From assembly GCF_000003815.2 (NCBI RefSeq), contig NC_049993.1:10974623-11038622 (forward strand): a stretch of DNA of 64,000 bases. Reading direction: 5' to 3'. Shown piece after piece: positions 23,673 through 61,055 of this stretch. Below the pieces are notes generated by a model. That model had not been told where the DNA came from. It saw only the letters and a list, made by a program, of their open reading frames with translations, and made no database searches. The position numbers were made by a program, and so were the translations under genes. Within the stretch, counting starts at the first letter, position 1. Each line of letters starts with the position of its first letter. The DNA comes from Branchiostoma floridae. Taxonomy: Eukaryota > Chordata > Leptocardii > Amphioxiformes > Branchiostomatidae.

Positions 23673-25168
23673 CTACACCTCCTCTGCTTTCTTTTTGCAA
23701 CGGAACACCTTCACTCTATTTTCCTCGTCCCAGAGAACTTGTTCCACGTCAAACTTTTTGCTGAGGATGTTCTCGTAAAACTCTCCGTCCGTGTCAAACC
23801 TGAACTTGTTGGCGAGTATGAGGGTAGTCTGCGGGCCGCACACGTGCATGAGGGTCCGCATCAGCTCGGGGAACGTGCGCTTGATGTAGACGATGTCCGC
23901 CCCGAGGACGTAGTCGTACTGCGGGATGAAGCCGTCCAGGTCGTCGCTGCCCCACTCCAGGCGGCGGNNNNNNNNNNNNNNNNNNNNNNNNNNNNNNNNN
24001 NNNNNNNNNNNNNNNNNNNNNNNNNNNNNNNNNNNNNNNNNNNNNNNNNNNNNNNNNNNNNNNNNNNACTTTTCCAACCGGGGCGCGACTGGGCAGCTTT
24101 CGGGAACGAAAAGTATGCCATAAAAGACACTAAGCTACACAAGATATAAAGACAATAGTCGAGGGCATTATTTGTGTATATTTCTCGTTTAAATTTCCAC
24201 AAACAGCCCGGCCGGTCCCCGGTTTGGGAATGTGACGTTAGCTTGAGGAGGATACCAGCATTACCTAGGTGAGTGCCAATTAAAAAATGGTTAACATCAT
24301 GCTAAATGTATACCTGTAATGAAAATGCACTGTCTGAAATTATGTTGATTTTTTTTCAGCTGAAGAAAGTCGCTGAAGGAAAATGTCAAGCACCAACGGA
24401 GCATCTACGAAACGAAGCAGAGATAAAGCTAGTAAGGTTGCTGACCCATCAGGCTTGCCACGATGCTGACCAGTCCCGTTCCCGAGCCCAGCTCGAGCAC
24501 CACCTTATCCTCCAGGTCCAGCCCGGACTGCTCCAGATACCTGCTCATCGTCTCACCCTGCAGAGGCAAAACAATGTGTTCACCCTACTAGCCCCACTCA
24601 CAGTTGACATCTAGCGAGGATAAGGAAAACTGCATGCAAAAACACGACGAGCATGCCAGGCATACCGCAGATGACCTACACGTCGTGTGCGATACAAAAT
24701 TTAACGTTGCAAGGCAGATGTTGTTGTTTCGCGAGATTTGATTCGGCCGTAAAATATCATATCCTCCCTCAAACAGTACGGGAGTGTGGGTGGTGTAAAG
24801 AGAGTTACTAAGTGTTATTACATACGTTAAAGACTTTCCCCTTTGGGAGATATCGAAAGTGAACACGATTTCCCTTATTCTAAGATGTTGCTGTTTCGCG
24901 AGATTTGATTCATTCGTAAAATATTACATCCTCCCTCAATCATATGTGATACAGTCAGTGGCCAGAAAAAAAAGGAACTGTCAACTAATAGGTGTAGTAC
25001 ATGATCCATTGAATATGAAGAGCCTGATGAATCGTGAACAAATCTCACCGACTCCCAGACAGTTGCGCCCTCCCCGCAAGCCGCCAGCTCCTCCCAGATT
25101 TCCACCTGGTTACCACAGAACGTGTACGTCTCCTTGGGAACTTTATACAGGCGTTTTCTGTCCGACAT
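23673..25168 (-). CDS. METTL21-family protein-lysine methyltransferase
   Basis: Three visible exons. Exon 1, 25,168-25,049: 40 codons with YTFCGNQVEIWEE and a TVW motif. Exon 2, 24,557-24,446: LELGSGTGLVSIVAS, the SAM-binding motif I of seven-beta-strand methyltransferases. Exon 3, from inside the N gap to 23,673: LEWGSDDL, YVLGADIVY and LILANKFRFDTDGEF, ending with TAG. The TVW, GADIVY and ANKFRF signatures place it in the METTL21 group (METTL21A, METTL21B/EEF1AKMT3, METTL21C/E), whose characterised members methylate lysines of Hsp70, eEF1A or VCP. ANKFRF resembles the C/E branch most, but subfamily and substrate are inference. About 35 codons, including the acidic SAM-ribose-binding region, lie in the gap. 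An in-frame upstream start at 25,210 exists, but an acceptor-like TTATCATAG at about 25,190 suggests it is intronic, and the ATG at 25,168 has the better context. Confidence 0.88.
23968..24067. other. Assembly gap (100 N)
   Basis: Exactly 100 N, a typical placeholder for unknown size. It removes the start of the last exon of the METTL21-type gene. Confidence 0.95.
24716..24939. repeat. Pair of 57-bp direct repeats in a METTL21 intron
   Basis: 24,716-24,772 and 24,883-24,939 share GTTTCGCGAGATTTGATTC and CATCCTCCCTCAA-type blocks at high identity. They lie 167 bp apart in the intron between exons 1 and 2. Confidence 0.8.
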
Positions 25169-26147: not shown

Positions 26148-26490
26148 AAATAGTATCCTATTTGTCCTGAATTAGTCCTCGGCCCCTCCGTTATGAAGTG
26201 ATGCGGAAATCGTCTGGAGCCTAAAGTCACCTATGCGCTGAGACGACCGCATTAAGCGGGCGTCCAAAAACCGCGCAAAGCAGAAAACTTGTCGAGGGCT
26301 GGGCGGGTGGGTCGCTTCAGGCTCCAGACGTAGCCGGAGGGCCACAGGAGGACTGACAGTTTGACATCTCTTAGTATTGTGGGGTCAAAGGGCAACTTTC
26401 GGGACCAATGACTAATCAGGTTAAATAGTATCCTATTTGTCCTGAATTAGTCCTCGGCCCCTCCGTTATGAAGTGATGCGGAAATCGTCT
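26148..26490. repeat. Exact 68-bp direct repeat (26,148-26,215 and 26,423-26,490)
   Basis: Both copies run from AAATAGTATCC to GGAAATCGTCT with no difference. The second copy overlaps by six bases (AAATAG) the end of the 87-bp repeat described separately. Confidence 0.92.
26342..26428. repeat. Exact 87-bp direct repeat, left copy
   Basis: CCACAGGAGGACTGACAG through CAGGTTAAATAG is identical to 29,150-29,236. The two copies are 2.8 kb apart in the same orientation. Confidence 0.92.
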
Positions 26491-26760
26491 TCCGCCTTTG
26501 CCCTCTCTGACTTTGGAGCCTTTCCTCTCCTGTCCCCTAATACCTCCCTACAAAGATACTTCCTTAAGGTACCTTCTCGCTCCTTTCCTCTCCCTGTCTA
26601 CTCTTTCAAATCACTCCCTGTCTTTATCCCTCTCTCATCTTCCCATCCTTATCTTCGCTCTATCACCTTTCCTCTCCCCTTACTCATATGATTCCTTTCT
26701 TACTCCTCTCGACTTGTCCCCCTCACTCATCTTGCTCTTCTTTGAACTTTTATCACTAAC
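26490..26760. repeat. Polypyrimidine-rich tract
   Basis: About 270 bp with strong C+T bias on the + strand (many TTTCCTCTCC, CTCACTC, CCCTGTC). Frames across it are Ser/Leu/Pro low-complexity and not supported as genes. Confidence 0.8.
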
Positions 26761-27040
26761 GTTACATAAACCACACATTCCTAAGTATTCACACTCGTTT
26801 TCCCAACACTGATCATACCCACTCCAAATTTACACAGCGATTCAAACATGAAGGAAAAACAGACATAACTGAACCATGCTCTGTACTGCATCTGGTAAGT
26901 CATCACTGTGCGACACAAAAATCATTTATACACAGACGCACATCAGGCTGCTCACTTCTGTCCTCAATGCCCGTTTCCCGCGCACACCCTTTAGCCAGGC
27001 CTCAGTCCGGCGACGATACTTACGCACTTCCGCCTAGCAA

Positions 27041-27445
27041 ATCATCCAGCCTCCCGCGGAAACCCATCGCACTGGATTTAGTTACAAAATGTCATGGAAG
27101 AACGTACATGACTTCCCGAATCATTCAGCCTTCCGCGGAACCCCTTCGCGCTGAATGATGTCACAGCAAATCACGAAAGAAAATAAACGAGCACAATTTC
27201 TCGGATCGTCCAGCCTTCCGCGGAAACCCTTCGCGCTGGATAACGTCACACCATGCTGAAAATACGCCTGCACACTTCTCGGGTCATTCAGCTTACTGCG
27301 GAACCCCGTCGCACTGAATGATATCTTGCTGTGCTATAAAAAAGGCGTCAAACCAAAGACGTTCTTGGTCAGACCAATCTCAAAACAGGGTTACTCGATT
27401 AGTTCCTAACCATCCAGCATCCCGCGGCACCCCATCGCACTGGAA
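27041..27445. repeat. Array of five hairpin-forming repeats with covarying stems
   Basis: Five copies of a unit with core CCGCGGAA, CCC and TCGC, each framed by inverted arms: ATCCAG/CTGGAT (27,044-27,077), ATCATTCAGC/GCTGAATGAT (27,120-27,159), TCCAGC/GCTGGA (27,209-27,240), TCATTCAG/CTGAATGA (27,284-27,321) and TCCAG/CTGGA (27,413-27,444). Start-to-start spacing is about 76-89 bp, then 129. Stem bases change in pairs (C-G to T-A) while pairing is kept. Units 2 and 3 are followed by GTCACA and several are preceded by ACG and ACTTC-type sequence. Confidence 0.85.
27331..27345 (+). promoter_or_regulatory. TATA-like box inside the hairpin array
   Basis: GCTATAAAAAAGGC lies between hairpins 4 and 5. 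If used, it would start a + strand transcript near 27,365 for which I see no coding frame. Confidence 0.25.
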
Positions 27446-29149
27446 AACGACATGTCAAAATCCATCAAGAAAAAAAAAAAAAGGGGAAAAAATGACTTAC
27501 AGTCCGTTCCTTGAGCTGTCGGCGGGGTTAGCTGAACTGACCGGCAGGGGCTGGGCGGTGTCGGGGACCGGAGCGCCAGTCGACCCTGATCCTCTGGCCG
27601 CTGTCCCTTGTAGCACTGTGCCCTGAAGCCGCCTCCTCAGGTTCCCTGGTATTTATTATCTCACAACTTTATTCAGTACAAAGAAAACATGGTTCACAAC
27701 ATAAAACATCACAGCCTAACAGGTTCCCTGGCGCGTCTTGACCCCTCTCTGCTGCTAAAACTTGTGCAGGCCACCAACGGGTCCTATCGGGCCGCACATC
27801 TGGCGAGGTTGATGATGGCGTGTCCCGGAGCTGGGTGGTGGTGTGTCCCTCGCATCCCTGTTGTTGGAGGGGGAGAGCGTCAGACCTGTATGAACAACAC
27901 GTGAACCATGAGATAGTGGGGAGGGACGGGCGCCCGGCAACAGGTCCGGTCCCAGACAGACAAGTCTAAAACAAACGCATCTTCCACACCGCCCAGCCCC
28001 CCCACATGCGAGCGAGCCGCGTTACGTGGCGTAAGGCTGGGTCACGCGCGCCCACAACATCCAAACGCGCCTTACAGATACACACTCATACACATGCAAA
28101 TCAAACTCCAAACTAATGCAAAATATTAGCGGAAACCCCATACACAGCCTCGACGTTCAATCTAGGAAAGCAAAAGAAAATTCTACCTTGCCAAAACAGA
28201 AATGACACCCAAATCGTACCGACTGCAGCCTTCGAAGCTCAGAGGGGTTGGCTGAACGCTACGACAAGCTCTCTCAGCGGGGTGACGTCTGATCCTGAAA
28301 ACAAAGAACCAGGAGGGGGGGGGGTCGCCATCTTGCCTCCTGGAACATGCCATCGTCGTTCTCTGTTCCTGCCTGAAATATTCACGAAAATCAAAAAATG
28401 ACATCAAAATCTGGAAACTCTCGTTCTGCTCCACACCTCAGCAATAAAAGCCAACACCCACAGCTTTCCTTCGCGGAGGATCACTATGGATACAAAAACA
28501 TAACCAGGACAAAAGAAATTCGAGAGAACCACCATCTGCCATGTGGGCACCAACTATCTGCTTGGAGTAGCTGTCGGACCCTGCTAAAACATTCACAAAG
28601 GCACGAAAACACACAAGAATCAATCAGCTTCACACAGAACAAAACGCCAGCCTGAACGAAAAAGGCGTCCTAAACTCGTCCCGGCCTAAGAAGGAAGAAA
28701 GGCTTGAAACTGTAACGAAAATGGCGTAAAGCAGTCACCCCTGCACTCCGGAACATTCCTCCCTCAAAAAATCAAGTATTCATATGCAAAAAACAACAGA
28801 CAACGCAAGGATTAAAATGATATAGCTGGCAGCCGGAATTCCAAGCCGTGCTAGAAAGGAAACACAAAAGCGAGAACCATAATCAGTAAAGGCCGCTCCG
28901 AACCTCTAACGAAGCACACACAGGAGTAAAGAGACGAGAGAAACACAAGAAAAAGTACCAACCGACCGCGGAACCAAATCAAACCTTCCGTGGAAAGAAC
29001 GTGTCCTCCCGAGGGTAATCAAAACGTGACCGCCAAGGCCTCGAGCCGTAGCGTGCTTCCCTGCGGCGTCGAAAAACCAACATCACCGCTGGGCAGGTTT
29101 TCTGCTTTGCGTGGTGAGCAGAAGTGGAGGGGTCCGCCGTAGACGAGGA
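27446..29149. other. CpG-rich segment without a supported gene
   Basis: GC-rich and repeat-like. A minus-strand ATGGCGACC with GGCAAG in front (about 28,335) looks like a YY1-type start region, followed by an acceptor-like TTTGTTTTCAG near 28,297, but the frames close quickly. It could be a non-coding first exon or promoter. Confidence 0.3.
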
Positions 29150-29236
29150 CCACAGGAGGACTGACAGTTTGACATCTCTTAGTATTGTGGGGTCAAAGGG
29201 CAACTTTCGGGACCAATGACTAATCAGGTTAAATAG
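29150..29236. repeat. Exact 87-bp direct repeat, right copy
   Basis: Identical to 26,342-26,428; after the shared AAATAG the flanks diverge (AAGAACAG here, TATCCTAT in the left copy). Confidence 0.92.
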
Positions 29237-33797: not shown

Positions 33798-36566
33798 ATG
33801 ACTGAACCATTAGTCGGCAGCATCCGCCGCTACACAAAGTACACGGCGCTCTGTATACTTCTCTTCAGCAACGTGGGGATGTACTATTTTCTGGTAGGTT
33901 ATTCGGACTCGTTTCTCCGAACAATCCATCCGTTTGATTCCATGGCATTCTGATAAATGTATTTGCATCCATCGACAAGTTGATGATTCGCTTATAATTC
34001 ATGAATTTTACCTGCCTCTTTTTCAGTCAATCATAACTGATTTAAGTGTTCTTTGTTCTAGTGTTCTTCATGTCATAAAGGGGTTCATGAAGATCACGAA
34101 ATTCAACAATGATGGACCTTGATGATAATACCAGAAGTTAAAATGTGGATGATGTGAACTGAAGCACGTTCCCTATTAAATTCATTCATTGGCAAAATCA
34201 TGTCCGAAGGATAATTACACGTGCAGTCTCAAAGTAAGAATGAAGTAATGATGTACTTACCGCACTAGTTTCTTGAACTATAAGGTACCACTTTTACTAT
34301 AATGTTGATGCGTTTAACTTCTTATTGGAAGGCAGTGGATAATGAACTACCCCACGTTCTGCAATGAGAGGTATCTGACTGAACAAAATACAGCCGATCC
34401 CCAAATGTATCTCCCTTCTCTTGTTTTTGTTGTCCCATCACAGAAAGGTTACTGGAACATCGAGTACATCTACGCCAATCAACTGGGCTATTTGGTGACG
34501 TCACCGAAATCAACATTTCGAGTTGGGGAAGAATTAAGTGTGGTCATCTCAGCTCGACACAAGCATAATATGACCGCAAACGTCGGTGACTTTTTACGGG
34601 CCTCTATTTCAACATCTAATTCACGTTCAAGTGCTGTCGGCATCATCAAAGACAACGCCGATGGCACGTACACTGTGACGTTTCGACTCTTATGGACAGG
34701 AAATGTTAAAATTAATATCCAACTTATCAGTTCTCGACAAACTGTAGATATCATAGAACGAACTGCTCTTGATTTTCCCGCCGACAAGGTCATGTTTCGC
34801 AGACGCTACCAGAACGGAAGCAAAGAGGAAGTTCAGGTGCTGTGTAACGTGTATCCCGAAGTCTTGCACGGAGACGGCGGCGTGTGTAATTATTCGGACC
34901 CGCACGCGGGGGCACGGTGGTTCTGTGAGAAGGCGGTGACAGTTCCCTGTGACGCCTGGGGCTTCCACGGCGTCCACATGTACAGGGCGATGAGAGACAT
35001 GCTAGAGAAGGGAGAAGAGAGTCGTTTCAGGAAGTACGTGTATCGAACACAAATATAGTAGTAGGGATAGTAGGGAATAGGTTACATGTTATGGGGTTTA
35101 TGTTGTTTGCTCAAGACAAACTAATCGTTACATTTGCAAAAGTTATCAAATTTGATATCAGGACTATTTCTGTACAAGTACCACAAATGATACAACCTGA
35201 TGACAGTGATGATAGTAACACTCAGCAGGAGTACAGTAGAATAAACGGTAGAATAATTCATCATCTTGAATGGTTTCTTCCATAGCACATTTTCCAACGG
35301 TGAAGCAAACGCAGCAAGAATTCCTCTCTCTGGAGACCCAGATAGAGTCTACGTCATGGAAGGTAGGATTATTATATATGATTTTTCTCTTCATTTCTCG
35401 GCGTTAGTCTCCTACGTAGACTAGCAGTACTCGCCTGTAGCCTATACAAAATACCTCGGGCTGATCCGGGTTGTGGTTTCCACTTTTGTGGGTGTGGCAT
35501 CAAACCACCTGTCAGCCAATCAGAGATTCCGCTTTACCGTTAAGGTGAAATATCTAGGCGATTCTCTGATTCGTTGACAACTACTTTTGTGGCTAAGCCC
35601 ACAAAATTAGAATCCTCAGTCTCGTTCAGCAGAGTCTCCCATTCTGGCTCCCAGTGTATATTGTATAGACTGCGAGCAAGGATCTGCGAGGGGAGGGGAG
35701 TGTGCTCGATGTTAGATAGTATAATTCATTGACTCTGTTGATCATGATATTTCAGTTTCACACTTCAGTTCTGCAGACTTCACTGAAAATCGTACTGTTG
35801 TAACTTAGGCATGGATCTCTTGGCCAACCGCACCCACTGCATGCCGGGACATCCCAACCCTCCCATCTCCGGTTATTTCCATCATGGCGTCTGGCAGTCG
35901 CTAGTCTGTGAAAACAGGCATTTCTCCACAGTACCAGAGTGGCAGCAATGTCTCACAGACAAGACCATGCACTTCTTTGGGGATTCCACCATACGACAAT
36001 GGTACGAAGAACTCGTGAAGATCTTGCACATGACTGAGATACCTATTCCAGACGCCGTTCACAACACGGGTCCACTGCTTGCTCACGACTCAATAAATAA
36101 CATAACGGTGAAGTTTCGAATCCACGGACCACCTGTTAGGTCAACTTGGACTCCGACGTTTCACCTTAAGTACGTCGCTAACGCCATTGATGAGATCGAA
36201 GGTGGACCAAACGATGTAGTCGGCATTTCTGTCTGGGCTCACTTCACCTCGTTCCCTGTGGACATCTATAAAGAAAGACTGTTCGCGATCCGGGTTGCTG
36301 TAGAACGGCTACTCAACCGGAGTCCGGGGACTGTGGTCGTCATCAAGTCTGCAAACACGCGCATGGGCAACGAACTGATCGGAGGCAACTGGCTGGGTCA
36401 CAAGTTGGACCTGATCATGAGAGAAGTGTTCGCCGGGATGCAGGTTGTTTTTGTTGACGCGTGGGAGATGACTAATGCCCACTGGAACAAGGACAACATT
36501 CACCCTGCCTCTGAAATAGTCAAGCAAGAACTTGAGTTCCTATGTTCTTTTATTTGCCCACTTTGA
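33798..36566 (+). CDS. NXPE-family protein with PC-esterase domain
   Basis: Four exons: 33,798-33,893, 34,444-35,033, 35,286-35,362 and 35,809-36,566, all GT-AG with agreeing phases, giving 506 residues and stop TGA. Exon 1 encodes a short basic N-terminus and a hydrophobic signal anchor (about residues 15-32), fitting a type II membrane or secreted protein. Residues about 33-230 form the neurexophilin-like region, with DNADGTYTVTF and WTGNVKINIQL. Residues about 256-506 form the PC-esterase domain: FFGDSTIRQW carries the nucleophile Ser (about residue 314) and DNIHP (about 483-487) the Asp and His. NXPE proteins are related to SGNH/GDSL acyl esterases and transferases; the substrate cannot be inferred here. 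The acceptor before exon 2 is strong (TTTTTGTTGTCCCATCACAG). The open frame upstream of it, from 34,342, is read as intron. A MITE lies in intron 3 and a LINE starts 457 bp after the stop. Confidence 0.9.
35484..35606. mobile_element. Small fold-back element in NXPE intron 3
   Basis: TTTTGTGGG at the left end and CCCACAAAA at the right, with inner arms CCAATCAGAGATTCC and GATTCTCTGATTCG. Imperfect inverted arms of about 48 bp, no coding capacity. Confidence 0.65.
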
Positions 36567-36801: not shown

Positions 36802-37023
36802 CTTTTTTTGTTCAGTCATGAATTGCTAGTATTCGACTCTGTTAGCCTTTATCTAAAATGTGGTGAAATGATGAGCATCCGAGAGTCGTTGTTTTTTCTA
36901 TGACCAACATAATCGAGGACAAGTAGATATTACACATTCTTATAAGAAGGCTTACAAGTTATCAGACCAATCATAATGAGAAAAAAAAACGTATTTATAT
37001 TTATATTTTGTTATTGTATGGAT

Positions 37024-38618
37024 ATTAAGAGTTCCTCCCTCAGTGTATGGTCTCTGTGTGGTGTTTTTGCCAATTACCATGACCTGAGTCTTCTTGGCAT
37101 TTGCCTTGAGTCCGGCTAGAGAGCTGTTCTTACATAACAGGTCAGTAGTTTCCTGCAGGCCGGGTTTTGTGTTGTCCAGTAAGGCCATATCATCAGCATA
37201 GTCAGTATCCATGACCGATACCAATGGCTGTTGAGGAGTTTCCTGAATCAACACTGCACCTGCGCTGAGTCGTTTGTTTTGTTCCGTGAGGTAGGCTGCC
37301 AAGTTGATGCACACATTAAAAACTGGTGGACCCTGTATGTCGCCCTGGCCCGTTCCGGATTCAACATCGAACCAATTGGACTGTTCCCCATTGACTCTTA
37401 CTGCGCTCACTGTCTTGTTGAAGAAAGCCTGTAAGACTCGAATGTACTTAGCAGGAAGGCCATAGAAAGAAAAGGCTTTCCAGATGAATTCTCGTTTGAT
37501 ACTGTCAAAAGCAGCCTTGAAGTCAATAAAGTTTATGTACAGTGGGATGTTATATTCAATACTTCTGTGGATGATTGTTTGAAGAGAATAAATCTGGTCA
37601 ATGCATGATCTGTTCTTCCGAAAGCCACACTGATTTTCCCTCAGCAGATTTTCCAGTCCCTTGTTGATGCGCCTCAGGATAACAATTTGGAAGAGCTTCG
37701 ATGCTGTTGACCTGAGTGTTATCCCCCTGTTGTTCCCGCAGATTGTAGTGTCACCCTTCTTTGGCAGCACAACGATTATACCCTTAGCCCAGTCCTCAGG
37801 GATAACCTCACCATACCAAACCTTGGCAAAAAGAGCTTCCAACGCCTTCGTTAATCCCATCGCACCGTACTTAAGTTGCTCGTTGGCTATTTCATCCACT
37901 CCCGGAGATTTGTGGTTTTTCAGTTTTTTAAGGGCATCCTGGATTTCTTCACCTGTTGGCGGACCATCATCATCTCCAAGGTAGGTAAAACTGGGGACCC
38001 CTGGTATGCTATCTAGCTCAGTTAAATCAGTATCTTCCTGTTGCGGGTTCAATAACTCTGAGAAGTGTTCGGCCCACCGTTTCCGTTGAGCGTCGGGATC
38101 AGAAATCAACTTTCCAGACTTGTCTCTGACTGCCGAGGACTTCTTACTGCGTTTGTTTGACAAGATTTTGATCTTCTGCCAAACTTCTCGCTGATTTCCT
38201 TGTTTCGCTGCATCCTCTAGATCCGTGGCCACTCTAAGAGCCCAGTTATTATCATCAACTTTGCAACTTTTCTTCACCATTTTGTTTAACCGTGAGTATT
38301 CTGACTTGTTCACATCAGATGTTGGATCACGTCTTTTAACCTGAGCTCGCTTCATAATGAGTTCTTTTGTCTTCTGTGATAGGTGTTGCTGTCGTCTTTT
38401 CTTTGGACGGTCACCAAGCACTTCAGATGAGGCAGAGTGAACAACCACTTTAAACTTCTCCCATGTGTCCTCAATGTGTTCATCTTCTACATACAAACAT
38501 TCAAAACGATTCTTTAACTCGATGTTATACTCTGTGACCTTTGTTCCATCACGTAGATGTTCCAAAGCTGGAAAAGACCGTTGTGTAGCTTTCAGTTTGT
38601 CTACTGCTTTTAGTTTGA
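37024..38618 (-). pseudogene. LINE reverse transcriptase, inverted 5' segment
   Basis: Continuous frame of about 530 codons. Visible RT features: SPGVDEIANEQLKYG, PKKGDTTICGNNRGI, NQCGFRKNRSCIDQIY, FIDFKAAFDSI, GTGQGDIQGPPVFN and the catalytic YADD. The frame has no internal stop, so the insertion is young. The first dozen residues of the track-length frame (upstream of VKLKAV) are antisense of the sense segment and not part of the protein; the last residues beyond LNI are target DNA. It cannot be functional because its C-terminal part is inverted relative to it. Confidence 0.9.
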
Positions 38619-38619
38619 C

Positions 38620-39276
38620 TTGGAGGTGGAAGGATATCCTGTTGAACAAGTCAGCACTTTTACTTACCTGGGGACCACATTCACTAGTGATGGAACATTA
38701 GACACTGAAATCTCAAAGCGTATCCAAAAAGCTGCTGGCGCCTTTGCTCAACTTGGCAAGATTTGGAATAACAGTAACATTCTTCCGTCAACTAAGATCC
38801 GTATCTACGAAGCAGCAGTCATCACAATCCTTACATATGGGAGTGAAGTCTGGGTAACCACCAAGACACAGAGCAGAAGGCTGGAAGTATTCCACCAGAG
38901 GTGCCTTAGGAGAATTCTTCGCATCAGATGGTACCACCGTGTTGCCAACTTACACATACTGCAACAAGCAGAGACTACAAGTGTTGAAGCGATTGTGGCT
39001 GCCAGCAAGCTTAGATGGTTGGGGCACATCCTTAGAATGACCAGGGAGAGGCTCCCAAGACTGCTGTTGGAGTGGACACCGAATCACGGCAAAAGGTCAA
39101 GGGGAAGGCCCAGACAGACGTGGTTGAACAGCGTGATGGAAGACTTGAAGTTGATCACAGGGAATAACAGACTGAGGGTGCGCGAGGTTGAAGCAATGGC
39201 CCAGGACCGCCCGGAGTGGCGCAGAATGGTGCGAAAGAGACGTCAACGCCTTGGTGCAGGCCACTCACCAAGCTGA
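38620..39276 (+). pseudogene. LINE reverse transcriptase, sense 3' segment
   Basis: Open frame for the C-terminal part of the RT polyprotein: TYLGTTFTSDG, LTYGSEVW, RCLRRILRIRWYHRV, RWLGHILRM and RGRPRQTWLNSV, typical of the region after the RT fingers and palm in many animal LINEs. It ends with TGA at 39,276. No frameshift or internal stop. Confidence 0.9.
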
Positions 39277-46126: not shown

Positions 46127-47122
46127 TCAGAAGTACTTATCCCCACATGGTCGACAGGCGCACTCCTCTACTATTGACACTTTTCGTACTTTAGTCTCGT
46201 TCCCTTGACAGTTCAGGACGACTTTTTCGTTGCGCATGCGCGTTGGCGTACAGGAGGCGCACGAGTCGAAAGGCCCCGGATGTTGCCGTGGGATGTGAAA
46301 GGAGCTGCACTGTCCATAACAAAACTTATTTCTCACCAGTTTTGTTTCGCATCCTGGGGACGTGACCTCCTGATCGAAGGCCACTGCCTTACACCAGTCT
46401 TTGCGCAAGTCCCTCTTCCTGAGTGGTAGTCGCACGACGCTGCCAAACGCGTACAGTGTGCTCTGTCCGATTCTCACTTTAACAGATTTCTTCTCCGATC
46501 TTCTTTGTGCTCGGTCTTTCTTATGTTTTCTCCGACGTCGGTTGCGACGAGGCTTTCTCCCTCTATACCGCTTTCTCTCATACCGGTCATCGACCGGGCT
46601 TGTCTGATCCTGTTCACTCGACGCATGCGCGGATCCCTCGACTTCTTGGGGCAGCTCCGCCTCAGTGAAGAGACCTAGGGCCGTTTTTATGACGTCATCG
46701 TCACCTGGAAGACGGTTGTCTGACTCATCATTAGGCATGCGCGTTGTCTCCTCTGTCTTTGACGCTGACTCGTCAGCAAGAGCTTGTTCTTCCCCCTCCT
46801 CTATCCTGTGAACAGCAGAGGCCCGGACGACGATTTTTTCCTCAACCACGGTGTCGTCTGACACTCCCTCTCCGTCCCGACCCCTCCCAACCGGCGGCCG
46901 AATCAACCCGAGAGTCTGAAACCGATGGAGCAGTTCTTCGGCGCCGAAGGACGAGTCGGTGTCGCCGAGAGACGAGGAGATCGTGTACCTGAGTCTGTCT
47001 AGCACTGACCTGTACTCCGGGTGGCGGGTGGGACTGGGCAAGGTGGAGGCGGCGGCAGCCCGCAGGAACAACACCAACGTCACGGTCACCAGACACGGCA
47101 TGCTCCTCACGCTCTTCTTCAT
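46127..47122 (-). CDS. Cer: Cerberus/DAN-family secreted cystine-knot antagonist
   Basis: One uninterrupted frame of 331 codons. Residues 1-26 form a signal peptide (hydrophobic VTVTLVLFLRAAAAS). Residues 27-180 are acidic, low-complexity prodomain. A very basic stretch follows (about 181-213, RGRKPRRNRRRRKHKK), with proprotein convertase sites and possible heparin binding. The C-terminal CTCK domain spans 244-326, with cysteines at 244, 258, 268, 272, 288, 291, 305, 321, 323 and 326; NKFCYGQCSSFHIPR and VEECACRPC are diagnostic of the DAN family. One N-glycosylation motif lies at about 308. DAN proteins bind and block BMPs or Nodal outside the cell; Cerberus/Dand5 members act in axis and left-right patterning. 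LPLRKRDLRKDWCK before the first cysteine favours Cerberus/Dand5 over Gremlin, whose core is also similar. Vertebrate CER1 has an intron before the knot; none is seen in this frame. Confidence 0.87.
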   Translation of the reverse strand: MKKSVRSMPCLVTVTLVLFLRAAAASTLPSPTRHPEYRSVLDRLRYTISSSLGDTDSSFGAEELLHRFQTLGLIRPPVGRGRDGEGVSDDTVVEEKIVVRASAVHRIEEGEEQALADESASKTEETTRMPNDESDNRLPGDDDVIKTALGLFTEAELPQEVEGSAHASSEQDQTSPVDDRYERKRYRGRKPRRNRRRRKHKKDRAQRRSEKKSVKVRIGQSTLYAFGSVVRLPLRKRDLRKDWCKAVAFDQEVTSPGCETKLVRNKFCYGQCSSFHIPRQHPGPFDSCASCTPTRMRNEKVVLNCQGNETKVRKVSIVEECACRPCGDKYF

Positions 47123-47130
47123 GCTTCACC

Positions 47131-59167: not shown

Positions 59168-61055
59168 TCATCTGGGATGTTTTCGGGCGATGTTTTCAAG
59201 CGCTCTTATCGGATTAATAGGTGTTGGAGGTGTGGTCTGCGCATGTGTCGCCATTGGGATGTCAAAGTTTGCTACGGGTATGCCGTGCAGATATTGGCCC
59301 GGAAGGTGCTTCATGGCGTCTGCAGTGTCCGCCATGACACTGGTGCTGAGGAGACTGCTATGGGGTGCAAGGGTCACCAATGCAGGACACTGCATCATCG
59401 TGTTCATTCCCGTCTGATTGGACGTGGAAATCATGTGACCCAGTGGCCCATGGTTGGCGGATGGGATCACCTGACTCAAAGGGTTTTGATTGGATGAAGA
59501 AGCCACGTGGCTAGGGTTCACGATGACATGATTGGCTGCCGTTGGATTGACCTGAACGTGCGTGGGAACTTGAATGTACTGCGGCACGAAGAACTGTTGC
59601 CCTGTCATCGGGTCAACTACCAACCTCGGTGTTGCGGGAAGCAGCTTGCCTTGCATGCCGGGGACGGGCAGCTGAGGCAGGAACGTCACCAAAGGTCCGG
59701 CCGGCGGCCCGGGACACGCGAGTGTCGTGCTTGGAGTCGTCGTTCTGAACCCACTCGTGCTGCCGGATACTAGTGACGTGTGCATGTTCGCCAGGCTGGT
59801 TAAAGGGTTGGGCATCAACACCGGTCCGGTGGTGGCTGTTGAGACGCATGATGGACTCGAGAGCATGGTGACTAGTCTCGACTTGGTCGCAGTCGGATGT
59901 GACGTCACCGTTGTACTTGAGGCGACCGAGGCCTCCACGGAGATGGGCGGTGACGAGCTCGGTGATGACATCACCTCGGACATTGGAGAACTGTCTCCTG
60001 CAGACGCCACCGCAACAGACAGAGTGGGTGGTGACGTTTGCGTGACGTCAGAGGGGCAGGATGACGTAGTGACGGAAGTCGTCGGGGATAGGACCGGGGC
60101 GGTTGCCTCACCGTTCACGACATCTATCTCACTACTGGCGCTTCTGCGGTCTGCGTTCTCTGTGTCGTCTGCAGATTTTTCCTCCATTTTTTCCTCCTCC
60201 GGGATAGCCTTTACCGGACTTGAGCACTTCCGGGTCCCGTTGGAGAGCAGAGCACGGTTAAACCTGGACGTGACCGTGACGTTAGACGGAAGTGGCACGC
60301 TCTGTGCGCTGGTGTTCGCCCCTTGGTTCAAGTGGTTGTCCCTCACACCAGGTTCCCTGATGCCAAAGTTGATGACAGAGCCAAACTTTCCATTTGAGAG
60401 ACCCCTGGCGGCAGGGCCTCGTGTCTGCAGGTGACACAGTAGCCGAAGGAAGCGCACATCCTACGGAAACAGCATGGAAATCGTCGGTTACTTTTTATGC
60501 ACAAAAACAAAATGAATTATTTTCTGACGGCATTCTGTCTATAGATAAGGGGATCCAGATCACAAAGAAACAAGCAAACAAACACAAACATGAGCTCATT
60601 GCCAGAGGTGCCATTACAAGTAGTTGTTCTCACCTGCGGATTCATCCCTTCCACCTCCGCCAGGTAGCGTGCCACCTCCTTCACACACTCCCGGTACCCT
60701 TCTTCAAAATGACGCATGTCAACTTCGTCTCGCTTCGGGTCACCTGAAAATACGTTTAAGTAGATTAGTTGTAAACCAACCATGAACGCTATCGCACTTT
60801 TAGCCCCAAAGCATGGAAAGGTTACTTTTCAGATCACTTAGATAAAATAGATTAAAATGATGATAAAGATCACGCTTGGGGTACCAATATATCACGCGAG
60901 TATCATGTGATCATCACGTGACCGCCCTAACCTGGGTCTCCAGTGTTGCTGTCCCTGTTCTCCTGTCCCTTCATGTTGGACTGGATGTGTTTGACGTATG
61001 ACACCGCCATCTCCAGAACCTCGGCCTTCTCCAGCTTCCCAGAAAGACCTCGTCT
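59168..61055 (-). CDS. bHLH-Orange transcriptional repressor (Hes/Hey/clockwork-orange superfamily), 3' part
   Basis: Three exons visible, 61,055-60,932, 60,743-60,634 and 60,460-59,168, all GT-AG with matching phases. The first gives the end of the loop and helix 2 (GKLEKAEVLEMAVSYVKHIQ). The second and the start of the third give the Orange domain (HFEEGYRECVKEVARYLAEV, then DVRFLRLLCHLQ). The intron inside the bHLH loop is at the position usual for Hes-type genes. The remaining 410 or so residues are Ser/Thr/Pro/Gln-rich and end IARKHPR, with no WRPW or YRPW Groucho tetrapeptide. That, and the KHIQ helix 2, favour a clockwork-orange/Dec-like group over classical Hes or Hey, but this is tentative. 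Basic region and helix 1 must lie upstream of 61,055 or outside the window. It would bind E/N-box DNA as a dimer and repress. Confidence 0.85.
60915..60920. promoter_or_regulatory. CACGTG E-box in an intron of the bHLH-O gene
   Basis: A canonical E-box 12 bp into the intron after the helix 2 exon. A CATGTG-type motif lies 10 bp away. Could allow auto- or clock-type regulation if the gene is cwo/Dec-like; weak on its own. Confidence 0.25.

Follow-up and report, generated by a model that had tools for sequence, protein, structure and literature searches.

An array of five hairpin-like units inside a dispersed, apparently non-autonomous split-direct-repeat element of Branchiostoma floridae

The window of Branchiostoma floridae DNA analysed here (64,000 nucleotides of contig NC_049993.1) carries a mobile element, and within it an array of five short dyad units (Table 1). 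Repeat comparison of the window placed the array at 27040–27444 as five 37-nt copies with 76–89% identity to unit 1, and a separate tandem-repeat search reported a 79-bp period across 27040–27250. The five-unit hairpin array of the original prediction, with its conserved loops and alternating TCCAG/CTGGA and TTCAG/CTGAA arms, was recovered by these searches. It had been put forward as the best candidate for an undescribed system, and proves not to stand alone but to be an internal part of a dispersed split-direct-repeat element, so that the reservation that the units might be transposon pieces was partly borne out. Elsewhere in the window, 36952–38697 holds a frame for a reverse transcriptase (RVT_1, 5.8e-24) that belongs to another retroelement, and likely host gene pieces are found at 34318–36566, 46127–47125, 60517–60828 and 23673–24134, with neurexophilin/NXPE4_C, DAN-domain, Hairy-orange and Methyltransf_16 frames.

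Table 1. Positions, in window coordinates, of the element, its repeats, the junction and the hairpin units.
Feature	Position	Strand	Remarks
Whole mobile element, ~3.09 kb	26148..29236	- (taken as sense)	limits from flank comparison of copies
A1 repeat, sense 5' end	29138..29236	-	97% identical to 26329-26428; + strand ends in core AAATA
B1 repeat	26423..26490	-	100% identity with 26148-26215
A2 repeat	26329..26428	-	6-bp overlap with B1 at junction core
B2 repeat, element 3' end	26148..26215	-	outermost 5 bp (26148-26152) target-like in other copies
B1/A2 junction	26401..26461	.	imperfect inverted repeat carrying TCAG-N22-CTGA
Junction parts	left arm 26401-26419 (19 nt); core AAATA 26423-26427; right arm 26442-26461		spacer 22 nt, containing the core; one unpaired base in right arm
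37-nt copies	27040-27076, 27119-27155, 27204-27240, 27282-27318, 27408-27444		spacing 79/85/78/126
Hairpin unit 1	27045..27076	-	TCCAG-N22-CTGGA
Hairpin unit 2	27124..27155	-	TTCAG-N22-CTGAA; other subfamilies TCCAG/CTGGA
Hairpin unit 3	27209..27240	-	TCCAG-N22-CTGGA
Hairpin unit 4	27287..27318	-	TTCAG-N22-CTGAA; T-A pair unchanged across the 44 arrays examined
Hairpin unit 5	27413..27444	-	TCCAG-N22-CTGGA; L027/L028 have TCAAG/CTTGA

Near-identical sequence spans 26148 to 29236 in the closest genome copies, as seen by flank comparison, and on the minus strand the repeats follow the order A1-internal-B1A2B2, i.e., they are split direct repeats. The core AAATA is constant at the right (A1) end, where it was present in all 25 copies in which that end was found, and at the internal junction 19 of 21 copies have it unaltered. 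The left (B2) terminal 5-mer differs from AAATA in 22 of 23 copies, the exception being the window's own. Ends of this kind, with one core constant and the other target-like, are what a circle recombining with a genomic core would leave behind; the end sequences thus bear the marks of core recombination without target-site duplication. Ngaro-like elements are defined by split direct repeats in which A1 stands at the 5' end and B1A2B2 closes the 3' end (PMC9210276, PMC4157794), and the model described for DIRS1 involves recombination at a short junction with no target duplication (PMC3266345). At the sequence level, the repeat order and the constant and target-like cores match those of tyrosine-recombinase retrotransposons of the Ngaro/PAT type.

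The genome (513 Mb, 431 contigs) was searched for further copies. The 406-bp array matches at least 40 places, the window included, and 11 of these are 95–100% identical; the matches comprise 43 pieces, and the count is a lower bound, since 40 of 62 candidates were scored. The element copies fall into several subfamilies and are dispersed through the genome. Among 11 A2–A1 pairs of the window type, 10 are separated by 2.80–2.81 kb, and the remaining one, at 9.8 kb, contains an insertion; for a second type, 19 pairs out of 21 give distances of 2.82–3.27 kb. Two places appear to be lone repeat blocks without an interior, in the manner of solo LTRs (L054:275-562 and C5:2984752-2985034). Within the element, an exact 12-bp repeat, CAGGTTCCCTGG, occurs twice in 27638–27731, 82 bp apart, around two minus-strand AATAAA motifs; the AATAAA part is absent from copies L022, L024 and L028, and the whole stretch may be a small insertion. 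Directly before the array, a GTAAGT/GTGAGT site on the minus strand (27495–27500) is kept in all eight aligned copies, so that a sense transcript may carry the array within an intron.

No coding capacity is recognisable in the element. In the window copy, 24 stop-to-stop frames of at least 60 amino acids overlap it, the largest being of 132 aa, and a Pfam scan of 10 of the 24 gave no match over the cut-off. Neither a reverse transcriptase/RNase H nor a tyrosine recombinase was found among these frames (at most 132 aa, 10 of 24 scanned against Pfam). A coding explanation was rejected on the lack of Pfam matches in the frames scanned and on the many indels between subfamilies that are not multiples of three. 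Having no recognisable coding capacity, the element would be at most a non-autonomous derivative. The search for an autonomous partner was negative at the places covered: none of 51 recombinase-like places lay near the 100 listed of 103 element ends, the nearest being 23.7 kb away, in a search that a diverged recombinase could escape, and genome patterns for the recombination core plus two A1 ends revealed no partner. One copy (L016) has about 7 kb extra, which was rejected as the partner because it holds foreign long frames inserted at the window equivalent of ~28929, and is taken for a putative LINE. Two further copies, C5:10890969-10898479 and C19:2972996-2976932, have the same A ends with 7.5 and 3.9 kb, respectively, between A2 and A1, and are candidates for an autonomous relative or else a nested insertion. 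A free-standing structured RNA family was likewise rejected as an explanation, as no Rfam score exceeded the gathering threshold: the search of the whole window gave no matches, and that of the element, with E up to 10, gave four weak matches, none within the array. A tRNA identity was also tested and rejected.

All five units of the window carry CCC and TCGC in their loops. The loop motif CCGCGGAA is exact in three of them, while unit 4 has CTGCGGAA and unit 5 has CCGCGGCA. With as many as three mismatches allowed, a 28-letter pattern of the unit matched 313 places in the genome and a reversed control pattern none, so the units exceed chance expectation. The distance between the arms is 22 nt in 216 of the 231 unit-like dyads in the retrieved loci, and an array copy holds from five to nine recognisable units. 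The copies L049, L050 and L052 represent a diverged subfamily with six to nine recognisable units, and in L050 and L052 a common long tandem-repeat stretch lies near the array.

Rates of change were compared on a tree of 44 arrays (40 plus L048, L049, L051 and L052; L050, a near copy of L049 with long runs of N, was omitted), by Fitch counts restricted to columns with an occupancy of at least 80%. The spacers have undergone 1.50 changes per site over 214 sites, and the five pairs outside the core come near this rate with 1.20 (50 sites). Values are lower for the innermost pair (0.80; 10 sites), for the loops (0.55; 100 sites), whose rate is about a third of that of the spacers, and for the five-base arms (0.24; 50 sites), whose rate is about a sixth. 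Rank tests against the spacers, which treat sites as independent, gave P = 9e-14 for the arms and P = 9e-13 for the loops. Unpaired stem substitutions at the neutral rate, the pattern that was to speak against the original prediction, are therefore not what the five core pairs display. Pairwise comparison of the window with L024, L028, L022, L048 and L051 gives 90–93% identity for the units and 64–86% for their spacers. These comparisons support strong constraint on both loops and arms. The units are, by the same measure, not the sole constrained part of the element, for 27868–27990 and 28348–28450 are also well conserved (mean pairwise identity of 0.87–0.96 in 40-base steps across eight copies). 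On the minus strand, each of these two stretches has a CAG that resembles a splice acceptor.

The units might be a passive satellite-like repeat that rides on the element, with a conservation that stems from recent copying or from conversion between units. The number of units does differ between copies, as such a repeat would allow, but spacers of the same age have diverged, unit 4 begins with TTCAG in 44 of 44 arrays, and the loop of unit 5 starts with CATC or CATT in all but the diverged L049 and L052. Units that keep their own identity across subfamilies are not being homogenised, and this explanation is very improbable.

Pairing was assessed in an alignment of 74 of 78 distinct unit variants (unit 1 of L035, unit 3 of L029, unit 4 of L045 and unit 5 of L019, all of odd length, were omitted). 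A nine-pair stem has standard pairs in 90.4% of cases, compared with 18–43% for slid partners. Read as minus-strand RNA, 442 of the 444 cells for the six core pairs hold a standard pair; read as plus-strand RNA, 382 do, and 381 are Watson-Crick. Most of the difference between the strands comes from the innermost pair, where 56 variants have U-G, and part of this excess could be due to CpG decay. Parsimony on the 44 arrays, with event polarity set by midpoint rooting and after exclusion of units that contained N or were of very odd length, gave 18 events in the six core pairs. Two are double changes from one Watson-Crick pair to another: C-G to T-A in unit 2, in the window's clade of 11 arrays, and C-G to A-T in unit 5 of L027/L028. 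Of the others, seven lead from minus-strand G-U to Watson-Crick and four the reverse way, two from Watson-Crick to plus-strand G-U, and three from Watson-Crick to a mismatch. When the 12 arm changes are placed at random, a simple model yields at least two such doubles with a frequency of 3.4e-4. Eight single-sided changes fall at pairs 1–5, three giving minus-strand G-U, two plus-strand G-U and three leaving the pair unpaired on either strand; by our reckoning, they are paired about as often as transitions alone predict. Mixed arms at the second pair occur in one of the 74 variants, and the pairs outside the core are often broken rather than kept paired.

Fold stability was less distinctive. 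Among single units, only units 2 and 4 were clearly more stable than shuffled sequences on both strands; the whole array was no more stable than shuffles as minus-strand RNA (z -0.17) and modestly more stable as plus-strand RNA (z -1.86). The case for pairing would thus rest on the doubles and the near absence of mixed arms, and not on stability. The earlier view that paired changes across copies reveal a preserved pairing stands in part: the orthologous units of the genome copies do show two matched doubles, which beat the simple chance model, but three of the eight single changes are unpaired and the outer pairs break and are not kept paired.

A purely mutational origin of the doubles has also to be weighed, in which one arm is rewritten from the other by template switching, whether in reverse transcription or in replication, with no selection. 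Imperfect palindromes are known substrates for correction of this kind, and each of the two core doubles maps to a single branch, so that it may contribute to them. As the explanation of the units it is nevertheless quite improbable: the slowness of arms and loops relative to the spacers and the fixed 22-nt spacing would both be left unexplained, and one stepwise intermediate was seen, at the outer pair of unit 5 in L020/L021.

More serious is the alternative that the units act as ordinary duplex DNA, i.e., as dyad sites for a host transcription factor or chromatin protein in an enhancer or promoter of the element, the arms being half-sites with no need to fold. Arms and loops under strong constraint between free spacers would suit such an array, as would the lack of a clear RNA fold stability, a GTCA-containing flank that follows units 1–3 in many copies, and the long dyad at the B1/A2 junction, which is what a dimeric recombinase would need. 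The TATA-like box noticed in the original prediction is indeed present, near 27334, in the window's subfamily and some others, and fits this alternative as well, but it is missing from several subfamilies; a TATA-driven promoter as a trait of every subfamily is ruled out by its absence. Furthermore, half-sites that are read separately should permit mixed TCCAG/CTGAA combinations, and these are confined to the single mixed variant. We regard duplex recognition as a possible, if on the whole doubtful, explanation that has to be taken seriously.

The B1/A2 junction resembles the units in its geometry. Its arms form 16 of 19 Watson-Crick pairs, one unpaired base being allowed, and none of nearly 20,000 random pairs of arms separated by 22 nt, scored in the better of two registers, exceeded 13 of 19. 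Eleven distinct internal junctions were found, of which 10 were aligned and seven compared for pairing. When the window and L022 types are compared, seven junction pairs differ on both sides; five of these replace one Watson-Crick pair with another, among them T-A with C-G at the Y/R position, which is variable in the units too. The pattern YCAG-N22-CTGR occurs 12 times in the 64-kb window, and its six occurrences in the element are the five units and the junction, at 26416; the other 16 spacings from 14 to 30 yield five element matches in total. From the six matches in the remaining ~61 kb, the chance of the pattern lying over the core is about 0.002, a post hoc estimate. Beyond YCAG, unit and junction arms seem only partly alike: among 5430 element positions, the right junction arm ranks third and the left 207th by the profile of the unit 3' arm, and 26th and 117th, respectively, by that of the 5' arm. 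In the CCAG subfamilies the junction arms have diverged while the units have not. The common YCAG-N22-CTGR weakly suggests that the same protein or fold may read units and junction. A bolder version holds that the nucleic acid of the element is recognised by shape: the junction would fold into an inverted repeat whose loop is 22 nt long, the array would consist of five copies of this dyad without the core, and the folded RNA or single-stranded cDNA, and not duplex DNA, would be read by the recombinase or a partner of it. This we consider unlikely; if true, it would represent the eukaryotic parallel to integron attC hairpins, with built-in decoy or loading sites.

On balance, and with modest confidence, we favour the reading of the units as cis-acting recognition sites, probably recognised in folded form and maintained by selection, in a non-autonomous split-direct-repeat element that would be mobilised in trans. 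A related autonomous element would supply Gag/RT and a recombinase in trans, and one such protein would recognise the five units, repeated for avidity. This recognition would select the RNA or cDNA of the element for packaging, copying or recombination of the circle. The units would probably be read as folded hairpins, in RNA or single-stranded cDNA, and not as ordinary duplex, because both arms change together. To our knowledge, the choice of RNA, the closure of the circle and the integration of DIRS-order retrotransposons are poorly understood. A protein-less family with dozens of copies in several subfamilies reveals which non-coding parts are kept, and the array and the covarying junction, with common arm letters and spacing, offer a direct test of the target of the trans-acting protein.

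In a search of openly available papers, no description of a hairpin array within an element with split direct repeats was found; the element family itself may already be catalogued. The order of repeats A1 ... B1A2B2 and the marks of short-core recombination are shared with Ngaro elements (order DIRS), from which the element differs in having no detected reverse transcriptase, RNase H or recombinase and in carrying the hairpin array. Ngaro-like copies have been reported in amphioxus, and the split direct repeats of one of them are described as different from those of others in that genome (PMC2632668). The element resembles PAT-like elements in its split direct repeats, but has no MT or other domain by which PAT could be separated from Ngaro. 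DIRS1-like elements are marked by inverted terminal repeats and internal complementary regions; here, the A-A and B-B repeats are direct and not inverted, and only an inverted repeat of ~19 pairs spans the junction. Terminal-repeat retrotransposons in miniature (TRIMs) are thought to be mobilised in trans. The element is short and protein-less like these and other non-autonomous LTR elements, but its repeats are split and partial, with B at the left end and A at the right instead of one full repeat at both, and one of its two terminal cores is target-like. Integron attC sites are described as imperfect inverted repeats at a tyrosine-recombinase site that are recognised in folded form (PMC8946536). 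They are bacterial, whereas the folding of the sites studied here is putative and the interior units carry no AAATA core; the likeness lies in the junction, which is also an imperfect, covarying inverted repeat at a presumed tyrosine-recombinase site.
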